From positions 5,580,001 to 5,644,000 of the forward strand of contig JAPNXP010000003.1 in the NCBI GenBank assembly GCA_028753945.1: a stretch of 64,000 nt of DNA. The letters run 5' to 3'. The position numbers and the translations under genes were made by a program. The notes under the pieces are model-generated. The model did no database searches, was not told where the DNA came from, and worked only from the letters and a program-made list of their open reading frames with translations. Source of the DNA: Hexactinellida sp. DTS-2022. Lineage: Eukaryota > Porifera > Hexactinellida. Positions 3,001 through 20,801 of this stretch are shown here, one piece after another. The stretch's first letter is position 1, and every line of letters begins with the position of its first letter.

Positions 3001-6000
3001 TCCGTCAGTCCGGGCCGGGGGTGCCCGTGGCTAGCGTGGCGGCTAAGCAGATGGAGCAGCAGAACAACCGACTTAAGGAGGCGCTTGTTAAGGTCCGGGA
3101 CCTGCTTACGTCAGAGCAGCAGGGCCACAAGGAGGCCCTCAAGGAGCTGGAGCGGGAGAGACAGACAGCTGAGACCCTCTCTCGGGAGCGCGAGCAATAT
3201 AAGGGTCAGGTGGAGGAGAGCGAGGAGACGATAGAGCTGCTTAAGGAGCAGATAGACGCTAATGTGAGCAGCGAGCGCATGATAGAGATCCTGTCGGAGC
3301 GGAACCTAGAGCTGGAGGAGAAACTCATGACTGCTCAGGACTCCATGGACGATATGGAGGCTCTCAAGGAGGTTTGTGTGTTGTGTGCTGTGGTGTGTTA
3401 TATGCTATGTGGTATCTTGGTACTGGGCATTTGGTGGTTGGTTTAAACTAGTCAACTCTCGTTTTCACGAAGTGCTTGGGACCAGTAAATTCCTCCGTTC
3501 TATCCGGGTATTTCGTTATTTCGTATATTGTACAGTGTATCTTGGTACTGGACCATTTGTTGGTGGAAAGTACTGGAAACATATGTTTCTATGTCAATTC
3601 ATTACTAGAATTATAGTATACGTACATAGGGTATAATATGAGCTATAGCATAATACAGTAGACTCTGCTTAATAGAGCTACTGGTTAATTGGATCTAACT
3701 ACCTTCGGACCAAAGTAAACTAATTAATTGGAGTCGACTGTAATTATAGTAAAACTCTTATAACAGTATATACGCTTAGTACGTAGTATACTAATTATTT
3801 TACCAAAGTTTATAAAGCTGTATGTAGTATTTATATAGTATGTAGGATTATAAACGAGTTCTATTATAGTAAACATTCAGTAGAACATCGTTAGTATAAA
3901 CACCGTTAAAATACGTTCTCCTTAGCAGGAATTCCTATTAACCAATATCATTTGTATTGAAAAGGCTTTGAAGGGACTGAAATAGTGTTCGTATTAACCG
4001 GAGTTGTATTAACCGTGTACTAACGAGGTTATACTGTATATTAACGGGTACTGTAGTTTAGATTAGTCAAATTTAACATTTCTAACATTTCCTATTAACC
4101 GTGTTATACTGTGTACTATCGATGCGCTGTATAGATATAACATTTCTGCTTCGCTACGTAGATCCACGACGAGCTGGAGGAGAACCAGCTGGCGATGGAG
4201 CGGGAGCTCCGAGAGGACCTGGACATGGAGGCCAACAAGAAGTTGCAAGCGGAGTCCCGCCTCGAGCAGGCGCAGATGACCATTGCGGACTACCAGGACA
4301 CCCTCGAGAAGTTCAGGAATCTGGTCGCTTCTCTCCAGAAGGATCTGAATGCGAGTCGCAAGGAGCAGGAGAGCGAGCGTAGCTCCCGCGAACAGCTGGC
4401 CTCCCAGTCCCAGGCCATGCTCTCTCTGAACCTCTCCCTTAAGGCCTCCGTCACGAAGGGGCACTCCAAGGCTGTGGACCTGGAGCTGCAGAAGCTCAAT
4501 GCGCTGCAGGCCAATAAGCAGGCACGCAGTAGTAGTAGTATTGGGATAAAGTGTTAACCGATTAACCGAAATTCGATTAACCGAACACACTTGGATGGTC
4601 ACAATGTTATTCCATAAATTAGTTCAGCTTTCAATTATCCGAAGTTTCGAACATGTTTGGCTAATCCCAACAAATACAGGTAATCGAGGTTGTACTGTAC
4701 TCTAATTTCCAGGCACTGTAGGGTAATTTCAAAAACACCAAGAACATCAAAATTCACCTTTGTAAGCCAGGTTTTTTTAATTAAAAAGGTGTTGGAGGAT
4801 TTATGTGTTCGCCTTTTTATTTACTGTTAGTGCATAATGAATAAATATCAGTAAAACGAAGTAAAAGGGAAACTTAAAATACTTAGATATAAGCGGAGTT
4901 AAATCAACTACAGTATCCGTCTGGGAATATATATAACTTCGTTATTCGCGGCTATTCCGTTATCCGACTGGCTATAACGTGAGTATACTGGTTGCTTCCA
5001 TCAGGTTGAGCTGTTGCTACAGTTCCTCCCCGGTTCCTTCTACGCTGAGGGCGGAGAGTGCGACTGTGTGTCTCTGTGCGTGCTGCTGCTGAGACTCAGG
5101 TTCAAGGTTCAGCTGCTGCTGGATCAGCTGAGACAGCAGTACCAGCTGGAGAAACACCTCGAGCAGAGACTGCCCATCAAACAGCAGCAGGCAGAGCAGG
5201 TACGTACTGATATACCATGTTATTCATACAGTTAGGTCTGCTTATTGTGAGCTAATGTTCTTCTGTTTCATATTAGAAACTTTTTGATATAATATCACAC
5301 TATGGTCCCATTTAACAACATCTTTAGTACTGTTGTATGAATACTATTTAACGCCTTTTGAATACGAATTATATTGGTTATACGAATTTTGGACAAGGCG
5401 AATCGCATTTTGACGATCCCCTGGTGTTCGTACTAACGAGGTTCTACTGTACATAAGGTTTGCATTAAGTTTAGCAAAGTTATAAACTATTATGACCAAA
5501 GTTTTGAGACCTTGATTATTCAAAATATAAGTACAATAATTTGGTATATTGGTATAATTTGTATACAACATCGCTATTATAAGTACACTAATTTATTATA
5601 TACTATTCAGTATCATTCTATAATACACACTGCTTATACAAGTACTATTAGGTTGTGTACATCTCTCAGCTGAGTGTGCAGGTGCTGAGGTTCGGGATGC
5701 TGGTGCGCCGGCTGTCCCGCCAGCTGGCCAGCTGCGGCCCGGCCCGTCTGAGCGAGCTGGGAGCCAAGCTGCCGGACGTGGCTCTGCACGAGAGGTGCAT
5801 GGACGGACTCCTGGACCTCTTCAAGCAGGACCAGCTCGACAGCGCAGTGCCGCTAGACACTCTCAGTTAGTAACTGGGGGATAGGGAATAGGCCAGATAG
5901 GCAATCATAATACAGTAGACTCTCGTTAAACACGGATAATCCGAAATACCGGCTAAGGCGAACAAAGTTTATGTCCCTAGCCTATATAAATGCATGCAAA

Positions 6001-10379: not shown

Positions 10380-10976
10380 GGTAAGCAATATTACTATAAT
10401 TGTTATTCATATGTGTATGCAGTGAGTGTCTCGTGTACAATCAATATATTTATTAACACAGTTATCTGATTACAAAAGTGTTAAATGGAATGGAATTTTC
10501 TTTACACGATAATAACCTGCTAATTGGAGAATTTGTTATTCGAGTCCTATTCACTTGTTAATTGTGAACCCAAGGTAATTTGTCTTATTTCTATTAAATA
10601 CTAGCAATCAATTACCGCGTGTGTTTATTCAAACGAGCCCTTCGGTCTTTAATGAGAATTCAAAATTAATCTAGAGGCTAGCTTCCAACGGGTTTCAAAT
10701 TTGGCTATTAGGAATTTTAATAATTTTATTTATTGTTGTGTTTACAAATTTGGTGAACACTGAACAGAATTATTCAAGTTGCAAAATAACCTGGATAATG
10801 CTACCAATGAATTAATTGCTTATTCAAATGCATGCAATTGGCTCTGTTTAATACGAATTTCTGGATAATACGAACAAATTTAGACAGTCCCCTGGTGTTC
10901 CTATTAACGAGAGTTCGATACCGATTTATACTAATATTAATTTGACGGATATAACTTAGCTTGCGTTAGACTGTGT
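10380..10976. other. Intergenic DNA between dynactin and MYCBPAP
   Basis: AT-rich; includes a degraded family-A fragment (about 10845-10920). No coding signal was seen. A donor-like GAG|GTAAGC directly follows the dynactin stop. Confidence 0.6.
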
Positions 10977-13541
10977 ATGTTAAAAAAGGATAAAAAGCGC
11001 AGAAAACAATCGGTATCGGACGAGGAGCCTCCGCTGGCCTCCGAGCACACAGAAACCGAGTCTGCTCTCCCGCTTATCGACTCGGGCATTGACGATGTTA
11101 CCCTCCGGTCCCTAACGGTACATCGCGACTACCTCAGCGAGATAGCCAGCTCCCTACCAAAGCCGCCGGTACACAAAACAACGAACCGTCGTGTGTTCGT
11201 ACGGAAGCTGCGCCCCGTGTCGGAGCCTAGCGAGCGGCCCGTCTCCAAGTCTGTTAAGGTGCTGCGTCCGCTGCCCCAGGGGACCCTCTGTCGGCCGGAG
11301 CGTGTCCCTTGTCCGCGCTACTCCCAGGCGGGTCAGCTGCTGCCTCACAGCATACTCGGTACCGAGACTGAGTTCTGTTGCGAGGCGGCCTCGGCTGAGG
11401 AGCGACATGTCCGCATACACCCTAGGGAGGGGGAGAGGGGTAAGGAGAGGGTCAGGAAGACTTGGTTCCGGCCTCTGCCTCGACAGGAGCACGCGCTGCG
11501 GCACTGGCAACAGCGCATGCGGCAGAGACGGAGACAGCAGGAACACATCGCCACGCGGGTGGAGCGGCCCGCCGGACACCTGGTCATGAACCAAAGCGAC
11601 AGCTACATGGACAGACAGACCCTGCGGACCCTCATAGACAGAGCGGCTCCGTTCCTGGAGAGCGGACAGGGGTATAGGGCGGGCAGCGAGTTCTGGAACC
11701 AGCAGGAGCGCCTGGGGGACTACCTCACCGGGATCCGACTCAGTCTGACCAGCACGGAGCGGGGCCAGCCGCCCCAACTGCAGCTCGTCGGGAGACCGGA
11801 TGTGACGAAGTTCGAGACGGGTACGGAGTTCCCAGAGGCCCTACAGCCGCCCGCCTACCCCTGGAAACAATCCCGCTATCTCTCCGCCAGACTGCGGCAC
11901 TTCGAACCGATTCTCAGCGAAATGAACCCCCTGGACCCGGACCTCTCCGCGCTATACGTAATGGGGCGGGGCCCACAGACCCGCAGAGGCGAGGCTATTA
12001 AGCTAGGCAGCGTAGAGACCAGCCCCGAGTCCTCCGACGGGGAGACGGGAGAGGGAGATAGGAATGCTCCCCTGGCCCCGCCCCCCGGCCCGGGTCTGCT
12101 GGTGCAGGGGGGACACAGTCTCTCCGTGGGGGCCACAGCCCCGGTGCAGCTGAGACTGCTTATGGAGGGAGACACTGGTCAGCTGGTCACGGCTAGGATA
12201 TCCCTGGTTAATACGGGTCCCTCTGTGGTGTATGCGGACTGGATTAAGCTGCCGAAGCTCAATAAGCTGAACCGCGTGTTGGAGGGGAGCACTCAGAGAT
12301 TCTATTTCGATCTGAGAGAGAAGGTTATCCTCCCGGGACACTCCGTTTCCGTTCCGGTTATATTCAAGTCGGCGCAGGCAGGGGTCTACTGGGAGTCCTG
12401 GGAGCTGGCGACCCGCCCCGCCCTGCAGCCGCTGATTGTCACATTCCGCGGGGTCGCCACCTCTCGGGACAGATTCCTGCGAGCCCGGGAGGAGCTGGAG
12501 AGAGATCTGGGGGCCAGGGAGGCTCTGGTGACCGCAGAGAATATTCTAGAAGAAATACTGCTGGGTATAGTCACCCCCCCTCGGACCCCGCCCCGCTATA
12601 AACTCGACCGGACACAAGAGGAGAAGTTCACGCGCCTCAACCCGGGTGTGGAATTCCGCGAGGATTTATTCCGCGCGCTACAAACGCTCTACATCCACTC
12701 CTTCAACCCTCCGACCCTTTCCGACAGATCCGATTCTGTGGAGCCTCGTAAGGACGGTAAGACAAGCGCTAAGAAAGAAGACAGCAAGGGTAAGGCCGGT
12801 GCGAAACCCGCGGCAAAGAAAGGTGAGAAAGTCGAGAAGAAGGAGGAACTGACTCCCAGCAAACTGACCTTAGTGCCCGCCCAACAGGGGTACGGCACCC
12901 TCGGGAGAGACAAGATCCGCGAGGGCATGAGCGAGCTGCCTGAGTGGGACATGAGCATAGAGTCGCTAAAAAGCGCGATTCTTAGCACGTCAGGGAGTGA
13001 GCAGCAAGCCGATCTCTTACTGGCGCAGTTCAGCGAAGTTATAACGCGATTCAAATCGCCCTCTCATGTCCTGACTCAGAATTCCAACTACCAACACATG
13101 TATATAGCCCTTGTGCAGGCATTAGAGCTGATTCCGTACAATTCCGCGAAACTTCGCACCTTCTACAGCCTCCCAGAGAAGCCGTTTGTCGACGAGTCCC
13201 TCCCCGAGTCGGGCGAGAGTGTGGCTAGTCCCACAGACATGAGCAAGAAGAAGCGCGGTCAGAGCAAACAGGACGTTTCTAAGAAACCGGCTCCTAAGAA
13301 GGCCCCTCTCAAGGAGGAGACTCCTGCTAAGCCGAAGGGCTCCACCCCCAGTCGGAAGGGAAAAGCCTCTGTCACACCTCGGACACAACAGGACACTGTT
13401 GCGACTGAGGTAACTCCAGAGGTGCCGAAAACCGCAGAAGTGGACCCTGCTGCTGAGAGGCTGTACTCTGTTGAGCTGAAACAGACCGTGTGCGACTTGT
13501 TGCACGTATCCATTGGTAACTTCCTAGCTTCGGTAGCTTAG
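10977..13541 (+). CDS. MYCBPAP: MYCBP-associated protein (MYCBPAP) homologue, single exon
   Basis: An uninterrupted 854-codon frame starts at ATG 10977. The N-terminus is basic (a KKDKKRRK stretch). The middle has the conserved MYCBPAP layout: charged Arg-rich helices around residues 150-210, a WNQQERLGDYL segment, then a beta-rich part (about residues 395-500) resembling the immunoglobulin-like/ASPM-type folds of ciliary proteins. The C-terminal third has two low-complexity Lys/Ala/Pro tracts (about 590-625 and 755-815) flanking a helical conserved block. Family members associate with the MYC-binding protein AMY-1 and are testis and cilium related; a ciliary role here is inference. Length is close to that of the human protein (roughly 950). 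High GC and strong codon bias match the neighbouring dynactin exons. The gene lies about 600 bp downstream of the dynactin stop, on the same strand. Confidence 0.8.
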   Translation: MLKKDKKRRKQSVSDEEPPLASEHTETESALPLIDSGIDDVTLRSLTVHRDYLSEIASSLPKPPVHKTTNRRVFVRKLRPVSEPSERPVSKSVKVLRPLPQGTLCRPERVPCPRYSQAGQLLPHSILGTETEFCCEAASAEERHVRIHPREGERGKERVRKTWFRPLPRQEHALRHWQQRMRQRRRQQEHIATRVERPAGHLVMNQSDSYMDRQTLRTLIDRAAPFLESGQGYRAGSEFWNQQERLGDYLTGIRLSLTSTERGQPPQLQLVGRPDVTKFETGTEFPEALQPPAYPWKQSRYLSARLRHFEPILSEMNPLDPDLSALYVMGRGPQTRRGEAIKLGSVETSPESSDGETGEGDRNAPLAPPPGPGLLVQGGHSLSVGATAPVQLRLLMEGDTGQLVTARISLVNTGPSVVYADWIKLPKLNKLNRVLEGSTQRFYFDLREKVILPGHSVSVPVIFKSAQAGVYWESWELATRPALQPLIVTFRGVATSRDRFLRAREELERDLGAREALVTAENILEEILLGIVTPPRTPPRYKLDRTQEEKFTRLNPGVEFREDLFRALQTLYIHSFNPPTLSDRSDSVEPRKDGKTSAKKEDSKGKAGAKPAAKKGEKVEKKEELTPSKLTLVPAQQGYGTLGRDKIREGMSELPEWDMSIESLKSAILSTSGSEQQADLLLAQFSEVITRFKSPSHVLTQNSNYQHMYIALVQALELIPYNSAKLRTFYSLPEKPFVDESLPESGESVASPTDMSKKKRGQSKQDVSKKPAPKKAPLKEETPAKPKGSTPSRKGKASVTPRTQQDTVATEVTPEVPKTAEVDPAAERLYSVELKQTVCDLLHVSIGNFLASVA

Positions 13542-13932: not shown

Positions 13933-16900
13933 ATGGCTGCTCTAGAAATGCCCGTTCGCTCCCTAATCCTGTACAACAACGGTTACGGTGTGTTCGAGCG
14001 AAATGTCAAGGTCAGGGGTCGGGGGCACATAGACCTGTACTTCCAAGCTAAAGACATGGAATATGTGCTCAAGAGTCTCTCATTCACAGACGAGACAGGC
14101 TCCAGTCTGGGAAATATATCCTATGAGCCTACAAGGCCTGAGGCTACCTTTACAGTGGATGATACTGAGAGTCTGTTGGGACTGATGCGGGGACTGCAGG
14201 GGTTCATTGTAGCAGTTAAGCTGTATTCGGGAGATAGCGTGGAGGGGAGACTGTTAGGCGTAGACTCTCTAGAGGTGAGATACATTAGTTCTAATTGTAC
14301 TATAATGGCATTGTGATACATTAGTTCTAATTGTATATCGGCATCAACAAGAATTAACATACAGTGAACTCCCGTTATAACTAAGTCGGATTTTTAACGA
14401 CATTCTGTGAAGAAGTTATTATTTTTATTAAAAACAGCGTGCATTATTACTAAAAACCTGACTCACACTTACTAGTGCCTGTATATTGCTAAGAAAATCT
14501 CACCACCATTAACTGTTCCGTATTAACTTATTATAAATACAGTGAACTCTCGTTATAATTAGATATAACTCTCGTTATAACTGACTTCGTTATAACTCTA
14601 CATTCCTCGCAGGTGTCCGTGTCAGCTGACCACCTCCAGCAGACTAACCACGTGTGTCTGCTGCTGCCTGACGGCTCCCTGGTTAAGCACAGCATAAGCG
14701 CCATAGAGCGGATACGCGTGCTGGACACGAGTGCGGTTAAGGACATAGAGCACAGTCTGGACCTGATAAAGAGCGCAGAGAAGACCAACATGCAGAAACT
14801 CTCTATATTCTATCACGGGGACGAACAGGAGAAACAGCTTAGTGTTCGCTACGGGGTTATCGTAAGCGAGTGGCTCAGCTCATATAGACTCGTGTTAAAA
14901 CCGGAAGCCACAGCCTCTAATACTATCACATTCAAACTGGAAGGATTCGCGGTTGTTAACAACGTTAAAGACGAAGATTGGAACGACATTAAGCTGACGC
15001 TTGTGGTTGGCGCTCCTATTCTCCCGGGGGCGGCGACTGGAGGCAGCACCGCCTCCTCTGGAGGGAGTCTCGAGCTGACCATTAAGCAGATAACCGGAGG
15101 GGACCTGTTCATACGGGCTAACCCCAGGGACTCTGTGGAGACCGTCATTAAGAAGGTGATTGTTAGTTATATGTACAGTAATGTAGTATAGTACACACTT
15201 AGATAGTTAGTTATACGACAGTATATGTAGTATAGTACACACTTAGATAGTTATACCAGGGTGTGATACAGAGGGGGGGTTGCCCTGGGAGTTCCCCCCC
15301 CCCTAGGAAAGATGCCCCCCCCCCCTAGGAAAGATGCCCCCATCCCAGGATTTGTCTTAACTTTGCTTCATAGTTATTAAATAAAGGATAAGTTATTGCT
15401 AATATAAACAGGATTAAATCATAGAATGATTATGCCAACTAAATACACTAATTTTGGCCTATACATGTATATGCTGCTCCTTTATCCAAGGGAACAGTCT
15501 GTTTCTAGGAAAGTTTCCCCCCCAGGAAAAAATTTCTGTATCAATCCCTGTATACGTACAGTAAATGTAGTACACACTTAGCTAAGTTATAGTAACACAC
15601 GCCAAGTTATAGTAATTACCACACGATCATCTACAGTTGTCCAATGTAAATCCTAACTTCCTCCCATCTTCTCTTTGACACTTGGCTTCATTGACATTTG
15701 GACTTGACTCCAATTTACTTAGTTATACAGTAAATATCATACAGTAGAACCTCGTTAGTAAAATACAGTTAATACGAAATTCCGTTTAATATGAACACTA
15801 TTTCAGTCCCCTTCAAAGCCTATTCAATGCAAATGAGATTGATTAATACGAATTCCGGATAAGGCGAACACATTTTGACGATCCCCTGGTGTTCGTACTA
15901 ACGAGGTTCTACTGTACCAAACTTATCGATGTGTTTATTCAACCTAAACGTAATTTAAACAACCCTCACAAACGGGATGGGAGTGTGATACTTCTGGTTT
16001 CACCAAACCTTCAATAGTATTTATTTAGATTACTGGGATGATGTTTAAATATAATTTCAATATTAAAATTACATTTTATATTTATTAATTAACCGGAGTT
16101 GACTGTACTTAGGTGAGGCATATTTAGCATAGCATTTGTTCGCGATTATTAATTTAAACCCCTTAGCGATTATTCGAAGAAATAAGATACTTTTTATGAA
16201 AATAATTACATTAGAACCTACGTTATCCGACCTCTATAAACCGGAATTTCTTTAATCCGACACAGAATTTCCTATCCCAACGAACGTCATATTAGGCAGG
16301 TTCTGCTGTATAAACTAAATAATTAATTAATTACTTTATAGAGTAAACATTGGATTTAACGACTACAGTCGAAACCGGGTTTTTCTAACTAATCGGTTTA
16401 TTCTAACTAAGTATTTATTCTACATGTATAAGGAATTCCAATTTTGTTTTATTTTCAATCGGAATTTTCTTACTTTATTTGCATGCAAAGAATTGGTTAG
16501 AAAAAACCGGTTTCGACTGTACTACATATTTGCTACAAAACACTAATAACGACTTTATTCTTGTCCAGAGTTCCGTAGCAGTATTTGAAGCTACTTCAGA
16601 TTTAGTGAATTTTTAGCCTGCTTAAACGAGTGTCGTTAAACCCAATGTATACATATACTCTACTTAGTATAATTATGTTTAAGTTTAAGTTTATCGAAGA
16701 AGGCTCCTGGAGTTGAAGGTATAGTGGAACCGTAATTTCAAAAATAGGTGTGAAAATGTGAGATTTGATTTTAATTAATTAATGTTGTTTGCAAAGAGAA
16801 TAAATAACAAACTACTTAATACGAAAAAATTAACAGAATATTTGTAGACCGAAATTCTTGTTATTGGACACACAAACTAATCTCCCGTTAGTATCTATAG

Positions 16901-19900
16901 CTATTCCTTGGGGCTCATATAACATTCCTTGTTCGTGTCCCTTTCTTCTTATGGTGTGTAGGAGGTTGCCTGCTGGGGAGAATACTCGAATGGAGTGTGT
17001 GCCTAGATCGCTAATGACAAAGTTGTTGTTTCTGTCCAAACAGAAGAAGCATGGGATTAACACATCCATTCCTTGTCCTTTGCTAATGAGAGAGTGTAGC
17101 AAGTCTCCCTCTAGTGACAGTACCAGCATACATGGATTCTCCTTTGGACACAGTACGTATACGCGGTCATGCGATAGCTTGACGTCATACGGGTATGATA
17201 TTGCCTGATGTGTGATGTTCCTCACATGGTTCAGGTCTGTGTCGAGTACACAGATTCTGTTGTTACGGAAATCTGCTATGAACACCTGTCCGTTGGAATC
17301 TGTTGTTAGTTGTTGAGGAGATTCGAATTCTCCGTTATTCGATCCCATCTTACCTATCTGCTTAACGAAGCTAAAATCAGTTAGCGAGTATTTGCTTATA
17401 GTGTGTCCCATGTCGCTACTAACATACACACTATTCCCGTGAATAGCTATGCCATATGGACGATGCAACCGTCCGTCACCTAACTGATTGAGATACTCTC
17501 CTGTTTCGGAGAATATCTCTACTCTATCATTGTACCAATTTGCTACGAATATCTGGTTTGTAGCTTCGTTAATGGCGACACCAGATGCATATTTCAACTC
17601 GCCAGGAGCTGAACCTTGTTTCCCAGTAGCAACAGTGGGCAAATGGAATGTGGCGTAGTTAGGCCCTACTGGTATCTGTGTAATCTCTCCGAGTCGGGAA
17701 ATGCTCACTTCGAGGGTGTCTGCTGCTGGAGGGGGAATGGGATAGCGAGCTGCCATTTGATTGTTTGTAGAAGAATAGTTTAATATTTTATGTCGAATTG
17801 ATTGCAATGGATAATCTGTGTATTTATAGCTGTATGATTTGTTTGTTGCAACAAACAAACAACAATGATGAGATGATGATGTGAGTATAATGTGGTAGCA
17901 CACACAACACGAGTTATACAGTGTATGTTGTAATGTCTCGTTACTAGGATGCTGTAAGGAATGTGGTTAAAGTTCTTCTATTCTGTCCTAATTGCAATTC
18001 AGTATTGAATAACAAGATATCATATTTACAACAGATTTACGATAGTATTTACGTTACTAATTTGAATAATATAATTCTGTGACCCAGACCCACCCATTGA
18101 CCCATCACACAATTTCCAATATCTAAATACGTACTATTGTCACAGTTACAGAAAAGTAACGGAATAACAGAAAAACAGAATATTACTACCTCAAGAAAGC
18201 TACTTGTTGCTTTTTCAAATATGTTTAGTTTTTCTATGCACATCAATATTATGATGATGATGATGATGAGTGATTTCAAATACACTTTAAACTGTGATAC
18301 GTATTTAGATACAAGTGTATTTGAAATTTTTGAATTTGTATAACAGAATAACATAAAAACAGAATATAACTACCTCAAGAAATATACCATACACTATACA
18401 CTATACACCATTATACCAGGGTATTATACAGGAGTAGAATTGAACACTCCTAACTATCCTAAGGTCACTAGAGTATGAATTTTGTACGCCTAAAAGGTTA
18501 GTTTTGTATTACTCTATGGGGACTTTCGGCAGTTTTCGCGCTCCTAAACGCAAACATATCCCAATTTATACGCTTCTAGGCGTATAACGCGCTCCTGGAT
18601 AAACCCCTGCATTATACTATACACTATACACCATGATTATACTATACACTATACACCAAATGATACTATACACTATATACACTATACACAATACACTATA
18701 CGTATGTCTGCTTAGGTTGCGAGTAAGAAGGGCATCACGGAGAGCAGCGTCAAGCTTATATTCGCCGGGAAACAGCTGGAGCCAGGTCGGCACCTACAGG
18801 ACTACAACATACAGAACAACACCACTCTCCACTTGGTGCTTAAAACCGGTACCTCCCAAGGAGCCAGCTCTTCCGGCGGGAAGGGCTGGGTCATGGCGGC
18901 ACAGCACAATCTGTCCTACTACCCCATCGACATGGCAGTGACCGCTAAGCGGAAGCAGAAAGCTATCGTACCGCTGCTGAGCACTGAGCTAAAGGGGTAC
19001 CAGGTGCTGCTGTACGATGAGAACTATCTTAAGGGGAATCCCCTCACTGCTATTCTATTCGAGAACACCACTGGACGCACACTCGACGGAGGCAGTATAC
19101 AGGTAGACTATAGGTTATGCAGTAATACTACTAACGGTATATGTCACTTAAGTAGACTATGATATGCAGTAGAGCTACTAACGTATAATAATACAGTCGA
19201 ACCCCTTTAGTACGGTTAATACGAAATTCCGGTTAATACGAACACTACTACAGTCCCTTTCAAAGCATTTTCAATACAAATGACCCCGGTTAATACGAAG
19301 CCCGGATAAGGCGAACATTACGGTCTCCTGGTGTTCGTACTAACGAAGTTATACTGTATTATATCGATTTTGGTGCAATAAATACAGTCTCGTTAATACG
19401 AATGGATAAGGGGGAATATCGGTTAAAGAGTGCGTAGAAAGATTAAGCGGAGTTACTTGCATGTATTTGTCATACCTGCCAACTGTACAGGGATTCCCTG
19501 TACAGTACAGGGATTTTAACCATTTTGGCTGGACCGTACAGGGATTTTTAAATTTGTCAGGGTTTTTAGATAGGGAAAATTATTGATTGTGAGTCTATTA
19601 AAATACCTAAACATATCTACACCATGTAAATATAGCATCTGTTCCTATTCGAGCATACAGGGATTCCCTGTACAGTCTATATAACTAATGTTTTCACCTT
19701 TACAAGAAAGATTTTTGGGTGTGTACAGGGATTTTGGCCAATGTACAGGGGGAAATAGTTGCCTCGTACAGGGATATGTCTCAAATAAGTTGGCAGGTAT
19801 GATTTGTATAAACTATGGGAATTAATACGAACAAAATTAGACGGTCCCCTGGTGTTCCTATTAACGAGAATCTACTGTATTTGGTATACAGTACGTAGAC

Positions 19901-20801
19901 TAGTTAATACGAAAATCTAGTTGTGTTCACATCACATAGTACCATGGATAACACTGGTTTGTAGGTAATGACAGAGGACCTCTTCCTCGGGGAGGGCAGC
20001 TTCCTGACCCTGCACCCAGGGGACGAGAGTGCCCCCATCCCCTACTGCGTGGAGACAGGCTGTGACGTCACTGTTGACTACGACATAAGCACACTAAAGT
20101 ACCACAGAATAGTCGTTAAGGACGGCAGTGTGGAGTTCACAAGGAAGCGCAGGCAAAGAACGATATACCGCATTAAGAACAAAACCCCGAGGCAACTGGA
20201 TTTCCTGCTTAACCATCCGTTCCTTGAGGGCTGGGTGTTGCTACAGAAGGATCCTAACAATCCGGTTAACGAATTCGAAGAGCCGGTGGATATAACTGAC
20301 CGGTTGTACCAGTTTAGGTTTCAAGTTGAGCCTAATGTTGAGAAGCAAGTATTTAATGTAAGGGAGTCTACGAATGACGTCATATCGCATGACTTAGATT
20401 CTGAAGTTAACAGGGAAGATCTGGAAGAGTGGAACAAAAAGGGATATCTTGACCAACCCACGCACGATGCAATTAGAGATATTATAGATATTCAATCTGA
20501 GATCAGTGAAATCTCAAAAAATATATTGGAGAAGGAAGCAGAGATTCGTGATCTTAACTCCACTCAGTCCCGCCTGCGAGATAATATACAGGCGCTACAG
20601 GGCCACGAGGGGGAGTGCAAGAAGTACGTGAAACAACTGGGGGCGACTGAGGACCGTATAAACTCAATTCAGACGGGAATAAAAGGAATCCGACTAGACA
20701 AGAAGAAACTAACTGCTGATAAGGAAAGGAAGATTGACTTGGTTGCATTCTCGAAAGATTTGAAAGCTGAAGACGAGAGCGCGAGCGAGAGCACAACTTA
20801 A
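13933..20801 (+). CDS. DUF4139-type protein with an internal ubiquitin-like domain
   Basis: Four exons in phase 0 (13933-14274, 14613-15155, 18716-19102, 19965-20801) give 702 residues. The N-terminal region ([13 protein letters not shown], about residues 8-115) and the segment reading [17 protein letters not shown] (about 225-245) are typical of the DUF4140/DUF4139 family, which is widespread in bacteria and eukaryotes and of unknown biochemical role. Residues 267-340 form a ubiquitin-like fold: the [14 protein letters not shown] and TLHLVL motifs align closely with ubiquitin. The DUF4139 sheet appears to resume at about residue 349 ([14 protein letters not shown]) and runs to about 530. A helical coiled-coil tail ends at a stop after a Glu/Ser-rich tip. 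Ubiquitin's C-terminal GlyGly is absent (LKTG, then a Ser/Gly linker), so this Ubl is probably a fixed domain and not a precursor to be cleaved. Intron 2 splits the Ubl and holds an antisense gene. Confidence 0.85.
14362..14605. mobile_element. MITE family B fragments (CAGTGAACTCCCGTTATAAC type)
   Basis: Two partial copies with CAGTGAACTC(C/T)CGTTATAA starts at 14362 and about 14541, and repeated CGTTATAACT words, filling intron 1 of the DUF4139/Ubl gene. Confidence 0.6.
15255..15556. mobile_element. TIR element with poly-C blocks
   Basis: ATACCAGGGTGTGATACAG at the left and CTGTATCAATCCCTGTATA at the right are imperfect inverted repeats around several CCTAGGAAAGATGCCCCC words. Confidence 0.55.
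15742..15914. mobile_element. MITE family A, well preserved
   Basis: CAGTAGAACCTCGTTAGTA / TACTAACGAGGTTCTACTG perfect 19-bp inverted ends; internal GTTAATACGAA and GGATAAGGCGAAC words. Confidence 0.9.
16364..16520. mobile_element. MITE family Q (ACAGTCGAAACCGG type)
   Basis: ACAGTCGAAACCGGGTTTTT / AAAAAACCGGTTTCGACTGT inverted ends. A half copy lies near 2755-2825. Confidence 0.75.
16830..17756 (-). CDS. NHL-repeat beta-propeller protein, nested in an intron
   Basis: A single-exon 308-residue protein lies antisense inside intron 2 of the DUF4139/Ubl gene. After a short Pro-rich N-terminus it is made almost wholly of NHL repeats: [62 protein letters not shown] and [17 protein letters not shown] mark successive blades, about six in total. 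This is the C-terminal half of TRIM-NHL proteins such as TRIM2, TRIM71 and Brat, without RING, B-box or coiled coil. Such stand-alone NHL propellers bind protein or RNA; no enzymatic residues are evident. An in-frame Met at 17903 would add 49 residues, but a TATA motif lies between the two Met codons, so I prefer 17756. Confidence 0.85.
   Translation of the reverse strand: MAARYPIPPPAADTLEVSISRLGEITQIPVGPNYATFHLPTVATGKQGSAPGELKYASGVAINEATNQIFVANWYNDRVEIFSETGEYLNQLGDGRLHRPYGIAIHGNSVYVSSDMGHTISKYSLTDFSFVKQIGKMGSNNGEFESPQQLTTDSNGQVFIADFRNNRICVLDTDLNHVRNITHQAISYPYDVKLSHDRVYVLCPKENPCMLVLSLEGDLLHSLISKGQGMDVLIPCFFCLDRNNNFVISDLGTHSIRVFSPAGNLLHTIRRKGHEQGMLYEPQGIAIDTNGRLVCVSNNKNFGLQIFC
17821..17828 (-). 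promoter_or_regulatory. TATA box candidate for the nested NHL gene
   Basis: TATAAATA read on the minus strand lies about 65 bp upstream of the preferred ATG at 17756. It falls inside the longer open frame that begins at 17903, which argues for the shorter start. Confidence 0.4.
18410..18612. mobile_element. TIR element family N (CAGGAGCG type)
   Basis: Left ACCAGGGTATTATACAGGAG and right GCTCCTGGATAAACCCCTG; CGCTCCTA/TAGGCGTA words inside. Related DNA at 27110-27298 and 53822-54295. Confidence 0.5.
19194..19356. mobile_element. MITE family A
   Basis: CAGTCGAACCCCTTTAGTACG / CGTACTAACGAAGTTATACTG ends, GTTAATACGAA words, GGATAAGGCGAAC block. Confidence 0.8.
19385..19877. mobile_element. MITE family A interrupted by another element
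   Basis: CAGTCTCGTTAATACGAA at the left and TATTAACGAGAATCTACTG at the right belong to one family-A copy split by the 19472-19800 insertion. Confidence 0.7.
19472..19800. mobile_element. TIR element with repeated TACAGGGATT words
   Basis: ATACCTGCCAACT / AGTTGGCAGGTAT perfect 13-bp inverted ends. Around eight TACAGGG-type words lie inside. Flanks share ATTTGT, consistent with a partly decayed 8-bp duplication. Confidence 0.8.

Follow-up and report, generated by a model that had tools for sequence, protein, structure and literature searches.

The DNA analysed here, referred to below as the window, is a stretch of 64,000 nucleotides from Hexactinellida sp. DTS-2022 (Porifera; contig JAPNXP010000003.1, positions 5,580,001 to 5,644,000), and the gene under study is a four-exon gene on its forward strand. 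To judge from its sequence, it is close to certain that this gene encodes a DUF4139-type protein with an internal ubiquitin-like domain (Ubl). The spliced product is 702 amino acids long, with an ATG at 13933 and a stop codon at 20799-20801, and all three introns have GT-AG ends and lie in phase 0 (Table 1). Enumeration of splice sites around the open frames gave numerous frame-keeping combinations, from which one four-exon model was selected. The first and third junctions were picked by eye among the frame-keeping alternatives, and the second, 15155/18716, was chosen by alignment to the genome's own ubiquitin. This second junction scored 59.3 bits against ubiquitin, compared with 54.1 bits for a donor at 15161, 50.5 bits for a donor at 15143 and 42.8 bits for exon 3 alone. 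Exon 2 is free of stops as it passes from the host part to ubiquitin positions 1-29, and exon 3 is open from ubiquitin positions 30-72 back into host sequence. Since exons 2 and 3 each carry host and Ubl in one open frame, the Ubl is not a separate gene, and mis-joined exons are ruled out on the same grounds. An earlier note on this DNA had placed a Ubl inside the host protein, and it is upheld by this in-frame continuity together with host profile matches that flank the domain (see below). The span that it gave, 15069-18850, does contain both parts of the Ubl, but most of it is a 3.56-kb intron that harbours an antisense NHL open frame.

The identity of the inserted domain was established by profile and pairwise comparison. 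On the spliced protein, the Pfam ubiquitin model (PF00240) matched residues 269-339 with 60 bits (E 1.9e-16), well over the cut-off of 25.4; when the exons were searched singly, exon 3 gave a Ubl match of 46.9 bits and exon 2 gave none at E 1 or better. The domain aligns with ubiquitin without gaps and is identical to it at 34 of 72 positions (47%). A sequence search of the Protein Data Bank gave 316 matches, and the 60 listed are ubiquitin, constructs named after it or constructs that we take to be derived from it. All 15 checked positions that we take to form the ubiquitin core are hydrophobic, one of them being alanine. The residues of the Ile44 patch are in place (I, I, G, H and V at positions 8, 44, 47, 68 and 70), and of ubiquitin's lysines K6, K29, K33 and K48 are retained while K11, K27 and K63 are lost. 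The Ubl part also matches a ubiquitin family protein on a plasmid of Ruminococcus albus 7 (NC_014824.1, 388210-388422, 45.1% identity).

The end of the domain reads L71-K72-T73-G74-T75-S76, with Thr-Ser replacing at positions 75-76 the Gly-Gly by which a conjugatable modifier is recognized. The chain then runs on into the host, which is the arrangement of an integral Ubl, one that lacks a C-terminal GlyGly and belongs to a longer chain. With Thr-Ser at positions 75-76, the Ubl would be neither maturable nor conjugatable; the replacement is read directly from the sequence, and the chemistry is what we infer from it. The missing GlyGly end and the flexible Ser/Gly linker of the earlier note were thus both found, with Ser/Gly-rich stretches on the two sides of the domain.

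Table 1. Features of the Ubl-bearing gene, in coordinates of the window.
Feature	Position	Strand	Residues and remarks
Exon 1	13933..14274	+	residues 1-114; N-terminal host part
Exon 2	14613..15155	+	residues 115-295; host part, then in frame the first part of the Ubl
Linker before Ubl	15021..15068	+	residues 251-266; Ser/Gly/Thr-rich; in the gap between the two host matches
Ubl, first part	15069..15155	+	residues 267-295; ubiquitin positions 1-29
Intron 2	15156..18715	+	3560 bases, phase 0, GT-AG; interrupts the Ubl after ubiquitin position 29
Exon 3	18716..19102	+	residues 296-424; second part of the Ubl, then in frame the second host half
Ubl, second part	18716..18844	+	residues 296-338; ubiquitin positions 30-72
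Linker after Ubl	18845..18916	+	residues 339-362; Ser/Gly-rich; no GlyGly at positions 75-76
Exon 4	19965..20801	+	residues 425-702 and stop; second host half and, by analogy with a bacterial model, a predicted C-terminal helical hairpin

Two further open frames lie in and next to the gene. The antisense frame within intron 2 (16830-17966, minus strand) runs uninterrupted over 378 codons and encodes NHL repeats (PF01436, E 1.9e-19); it does not contribute to the Ubl protein. Directly upstream of the gene, in the same orientation, is an 866-codon frame of the MYCBPAP family (10941-13541, plus strand; PF14646, E 4.6e-93).

We then turn to the identity of the host. The Pfam DUF4139 model (PF13598) matched residues 190-249 with 17.5 bits, which is below its cut-off of 31.8, and removal of residues 251-362 gave a score of 17.1 bits and did not recover the full match. 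Because this model alone stays under its cut-off, host identity rests on a bridge of bacterial homologues. A tblastn search against plasmids returned 14 records, 13 of which match the host and one the Ubl alone, the top match being a DUF4139 protein of Rhizobium (97% coverage, E 1e-20). A scan of genome contigs gave 482 pattern stretches, of which 306 are relatives. The best 80 loci, taken together with three plasmid loci, yielded 84 open frames matching the animal protein; four frames outside 550-950 residues were dropped, and the remaining 80 homologues were aligned. From this alignment a profile of 70 homologues was made, which left out the three plasmid rows, six rows longer than 760 residues and one other row (L058). 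The profile matched the animal protein over residues 2-250 (127.6 bits) and again over residues 363-681 (118.1 bits), for a total of 247.7 bits (E 5.6e-76), and every one of its 70 members hits PF13598 with an E of 0.01 or less. By this full-length match to PF13598-matching bacterial proteins the animal protein is, through transitive homology, of the DUF4139 type, the Pfam cut-off itself not being reached. The two DUF4139 halves proposed in the earlier note are accordingly visible through the bacterial profile but not by a direct Pfam match above the cut-off.

The bacterial relatives differ from the animal protein at two places. Those like QDG93787.1 of Rhizobium, whose relatives come from Alphaproteobacteria and Sorangium, are colinear with it over the full length and match both host halves, but have no Ubl and carry a stretch of 73-127 residues in its place. 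Ubiquitin is absent from the nine Pfam families listed for the 70 profile members, and a ubiquitin query scored 1.7 bits at most against the 80 bacterial homologues; on this evidence the possibility that the Ubl was already present in the bacterial homologues was rejected. The second difference is at the N terminus. Ahead of the position aligned with animal residue 8, the bacterial frames have 25-267 residues, of which the longer lengths are overestimates, bacterial starts having been taken mechanically, and the animal protein, which begins at the core, has seven. In the three plasmid rows read, this extra stretch looked signal-peptide-like by eye.

Other families were matched more weakly. The MuiA family (TIGR02231) gave a partial match at residues 143-251, with 33.2 bits against a cut-off of 112.6; MuiA would thus be a distant cousin, and by the NCBIfam score the animal protein is no member. 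Exon 1 gave an LSM match under the threshold (12.7 bits, cut-off 23.4). It aligns with the first part of a predicted Sm/Hfq-like small barrel in the N-terminal part of a modelled bacterial homologue, L014 (model residues 127-196, approximately animal residues 85-150). A pattern scan of viral contigs matched 127 stretches, none of which proved to be a relative.

The same bacterial model was used to examine the insertion site. Between the two host halves the animal protein has 113 residues, compared with 73-127 in the 80 bacterial homologues, in which this stretch is enriched in alanine (20.7%; remainder of the protein 11.7%) and proline (10.5%; remainder 4.9%). The AlphaFold2 model of L014 was built with 70 sequences and has a mean predicted local distance difference test score (pLDDT) of 84.6. 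Animal residues 250 and 363 align to its residues 292 and 384, and over model residues 291-380 the mean pLDDT of ten-residue blocks ranges from 38 to 72, with one four-residue helix and one four-residue strand. The site in the bacterial model is therefore mostly a low-confidence linker between two strands, and because it is of this kind the Ubl took the place of a linker rather than broke a fold. The Ubl had been expected in the earlier note to bulge from the DUF4139 sheet, an expectation that the model does not support.

One eukaryotic genome, that of the animal itself (112.4 Mb, 18 contigs), was searched for related genes; polyubiquitin genes in it, like the introns of the gene, are a eukaryotic mark. 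The full-length protein as query returned 26 matches, consisting of the four exons of the window, one partial copy of exon 4 on contig C14 and 21 matches to the Ubl region, one of which, on contig C4, spans residues 156-368; by this query the same DUF4139-Ubl fusion was not found elsewhere in the genome. Frames from 8 of at least 13 DUF4139 matches in the genome showed remote similarity only (best domain E 0.067 in a search with the protein), and the bacterial profile gave a single weak match among these frames, on contig C18 (10.9 bits, E 0.00026). Open frames of up to 881 codons, rich in diverged Ubl matches, form clusters at C4:5.700-5.708 Mb and C12:5.929-5.942 Mb.

The copy on C14 takes in a portion of exon 4 together with the 3' flank (positions 3499-4169 of locus L122, C14:1126000-1134000). 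Its identity to the gene is 95.5% in the coding part and 84.3% in the flank, and over 222 codons the nonsynonymous rate (dN) is 0.0115 and the synonymous rate (dS) 0.188. With stops directly upstream and a one-base gap, the copy is probably a dead fragment today that was under constraint before its decay. The low dN/dS speaks for a live gene, in which this exon-4 part of the host has apparently long been under purifying selection. In a quick maximum-likelihood tree from which the Ubl region was omitted, the animal protein forms a long branch (4.63), separate from the 80 bacterial rows, a placement that the tree program flags as unsure. Recent bacterial transfer or contamination is not supported, given this long branch and a gene with introns.

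We next considered what the Ubl might do. Using position lists that we take to represent the surface and core of ubiquitin, identity to ubiquitin was 10 of 13 on the Ile44 face, 13 of 37 on the other surface and 11 of 22 in the core (one-sided Fisher p=0.011, uncorrected). As controls, we took 20 of at least 96 PF00240 matches in the genome, chosen mainly by score and passing over complete ubiquitin repeats, the match in the window itself and several rows that bear stops or belong to the same tandem arrays. A single control reached 10 of 13, and this one is presumably NEDD8-like; the next best were two rows with 7 of 13 and one with 6 of 10 aligned positions. The surface test is suggestive only. 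Because the Ile44 face is better kept than the other surface positions, docking appears likelier than a purely structural role, so that of the structural or docking insert suggested in the earlier note the second half is favoured and the first has lost ground. Excerpts from one study describe the proteasomal protein Rpn1 as contacted by ubiquitin around L8, I44 and V70; the Dsk2 and Ubp6 Ubls were probed at the same region of Rpn1 (PMC8405992). Docking is the most likely role of the Ubl, to which we would give about an even chance.

By sequence, a Ubl held on flexible Ser/Gly linkers has replaced the linker between the halves of the DUF4139 core, in a protein that begins at the core and probably resides in the cytosol. 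In the mechanism that we propose, the tethered Ubl would present its intact Ile44 face and so bring the host, with whatever the host binds, to a receptor for ubiquitin or Ubls, for example a proteasomal one or one of the UBA/UIM type. The comparison with bacteria suggests that a docking site for ubiquitin-reading machinery was gained where they have a mostly disordered linker. A further step, which we consider possible but doubtful, is that a bacterial-type and probably exported family became in the animal a cytosolic adaptor of the ubiquitin system, whose Ubl delivers host-bound cargo to the proteasome or another Ubl receptor. The host in such an adaptor, having exchanged its linker for a ubiquitin domain whose Ile44 face works, would carry the predicted Sm-like barrel and the C-terminal hairpin.

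Several observations weigh against docking by a domain that replaced a mere linker. Three of the 20 control Ubls (L104, L110 and L119) also gave p<0.05, F4, which stands for the Phe4 patch, is T in the Ubl, and the Ile44 region overlaps a part of ubiquitin whose conservation in Ubls often serves the fold. The host is uncharacterised, so docking has no assigned purpose, and the dN/dS estimate covers part of exon 4 only, with the Ubl lying outside it. Finally, the bacterial linker holds a conserved segment (RPEVPV...P..D.G in the alignment consensus) that does not occur in the animal protein, and in a separate core model (mean pLDDT 81.2, 68 sequences) linker residues 101-110 reach a mean pLDDT of 87. 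A linker element with a role of its own in bacteria may have been lost in the animal protein.

The main rival to docking is a purely structural role, in which the Ubl would be a compactly folded spacer that spans the two host halves and has no partner. Such a spacer would be at home at a linker site, in a stretch whose 113 residues fall within the bacterial 73-127, and the hydrophobic core and missing GlyGly would suit it as well. It would have no need for a solvent-facing Ile44 surface, yet 10 of its 13 positions match ubiquitin exactly, compared with 13 of 37 on the other surface, and we regard this explanation as unlikely. Less probable still is that the Ubl acts in cis, folding back on the host or on the C-terminal hairpin and thereby regulating the host. 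The flexible linkers on both sides would allow this, and a precedent comes from USP11, in which, according to excerpts of PMC12718135, a Ubl insert alters the behaviour of its own host; among the Pfam matches of the protein at E 1 or better, however, there is no ubiquitin-binding family, and the host has no known activity to regulate. We give little credence to a third proposal, in which the Ubl drifts as a functionless passenger specific to this lineage. This would agree with a eukaryotic scope of one genome and with the position of the genome's other DUF4139 matches, which are not beside a Ubl (among the matches listed, even the nearest pair is separated by more than 100 kb), but a domain that is only 47% identical to ubiquitin and has nonetheless kept its core hydrophobics and Ile44 face suggests long constrained retention. 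An artefact of the gene model, with the Ubl coming from another gene or its halves never spliced together, might be thought of for an intron of 3.56 kb that contains another open frame, but is very improbable when exon 2 passes stop-free from host to Ubl, exon 3 passes from Ubl to host, and 15155/18716 scores higher against ubiquitin than the other two donors tried.

The significance of a docking Ubl in this host lies partly in how little is recorded of the family. Across the full text of 5.39 million open papers, DUF4139 came up in two papers, a Leishmania protein list and an Anisakis paper, and searches naming DUF4139 found no such protein described with a Ubl in this open literature, a scope that leaves subscription journals and protein databases outside. 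We take F37C4.5 of Caenorhabditis elegans to be a DUF4139 protein. According to excerpts of one report (PMC6470173), a pull-down with KRI-1 recovered F37C4.5, and knocking F37C4.5 down failed to suppress the apoptosis that was tested. DUF4139 proteins are thus scarcely studied, and a Ubl with an intact recognition face makes one member of the family concretely testable. The protein also provides a natural example of a host-domain linker replaced by a whole folded domain within a stretch of similar length.

Two known systems offer a comparison. The Ubls of the shuttle proteins Rad23 and Dsk2 are N-terminal and are paired with UBA domains. Like them, the animal Ubl has an intact Ile44 face and no GlyGly, and the rad23 model gave a weak match to the protein (27.2 bits, cut-off 207.3); unlike them, the animal protein has no UBA among its Pfam matches at E 1 or better. 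The second system comprises USP4, USP11 and USP15, whose host, in contrast to ours, is a deubiquitinase with known activity; we know of no relation between these hosts and DUF4139. Excerpts of one paper describe a UBL2-IDR insert that splits the catalytic domain of all three, and the likeness is close, in that an integral, non-conjugated Ubl with flexible surroundings lies between two halves of one host domain (PMC12718135). An integral Ubl that splits its host domain is a known device, and the new part is the uncharacterised DUF4139 host in which it is found here.

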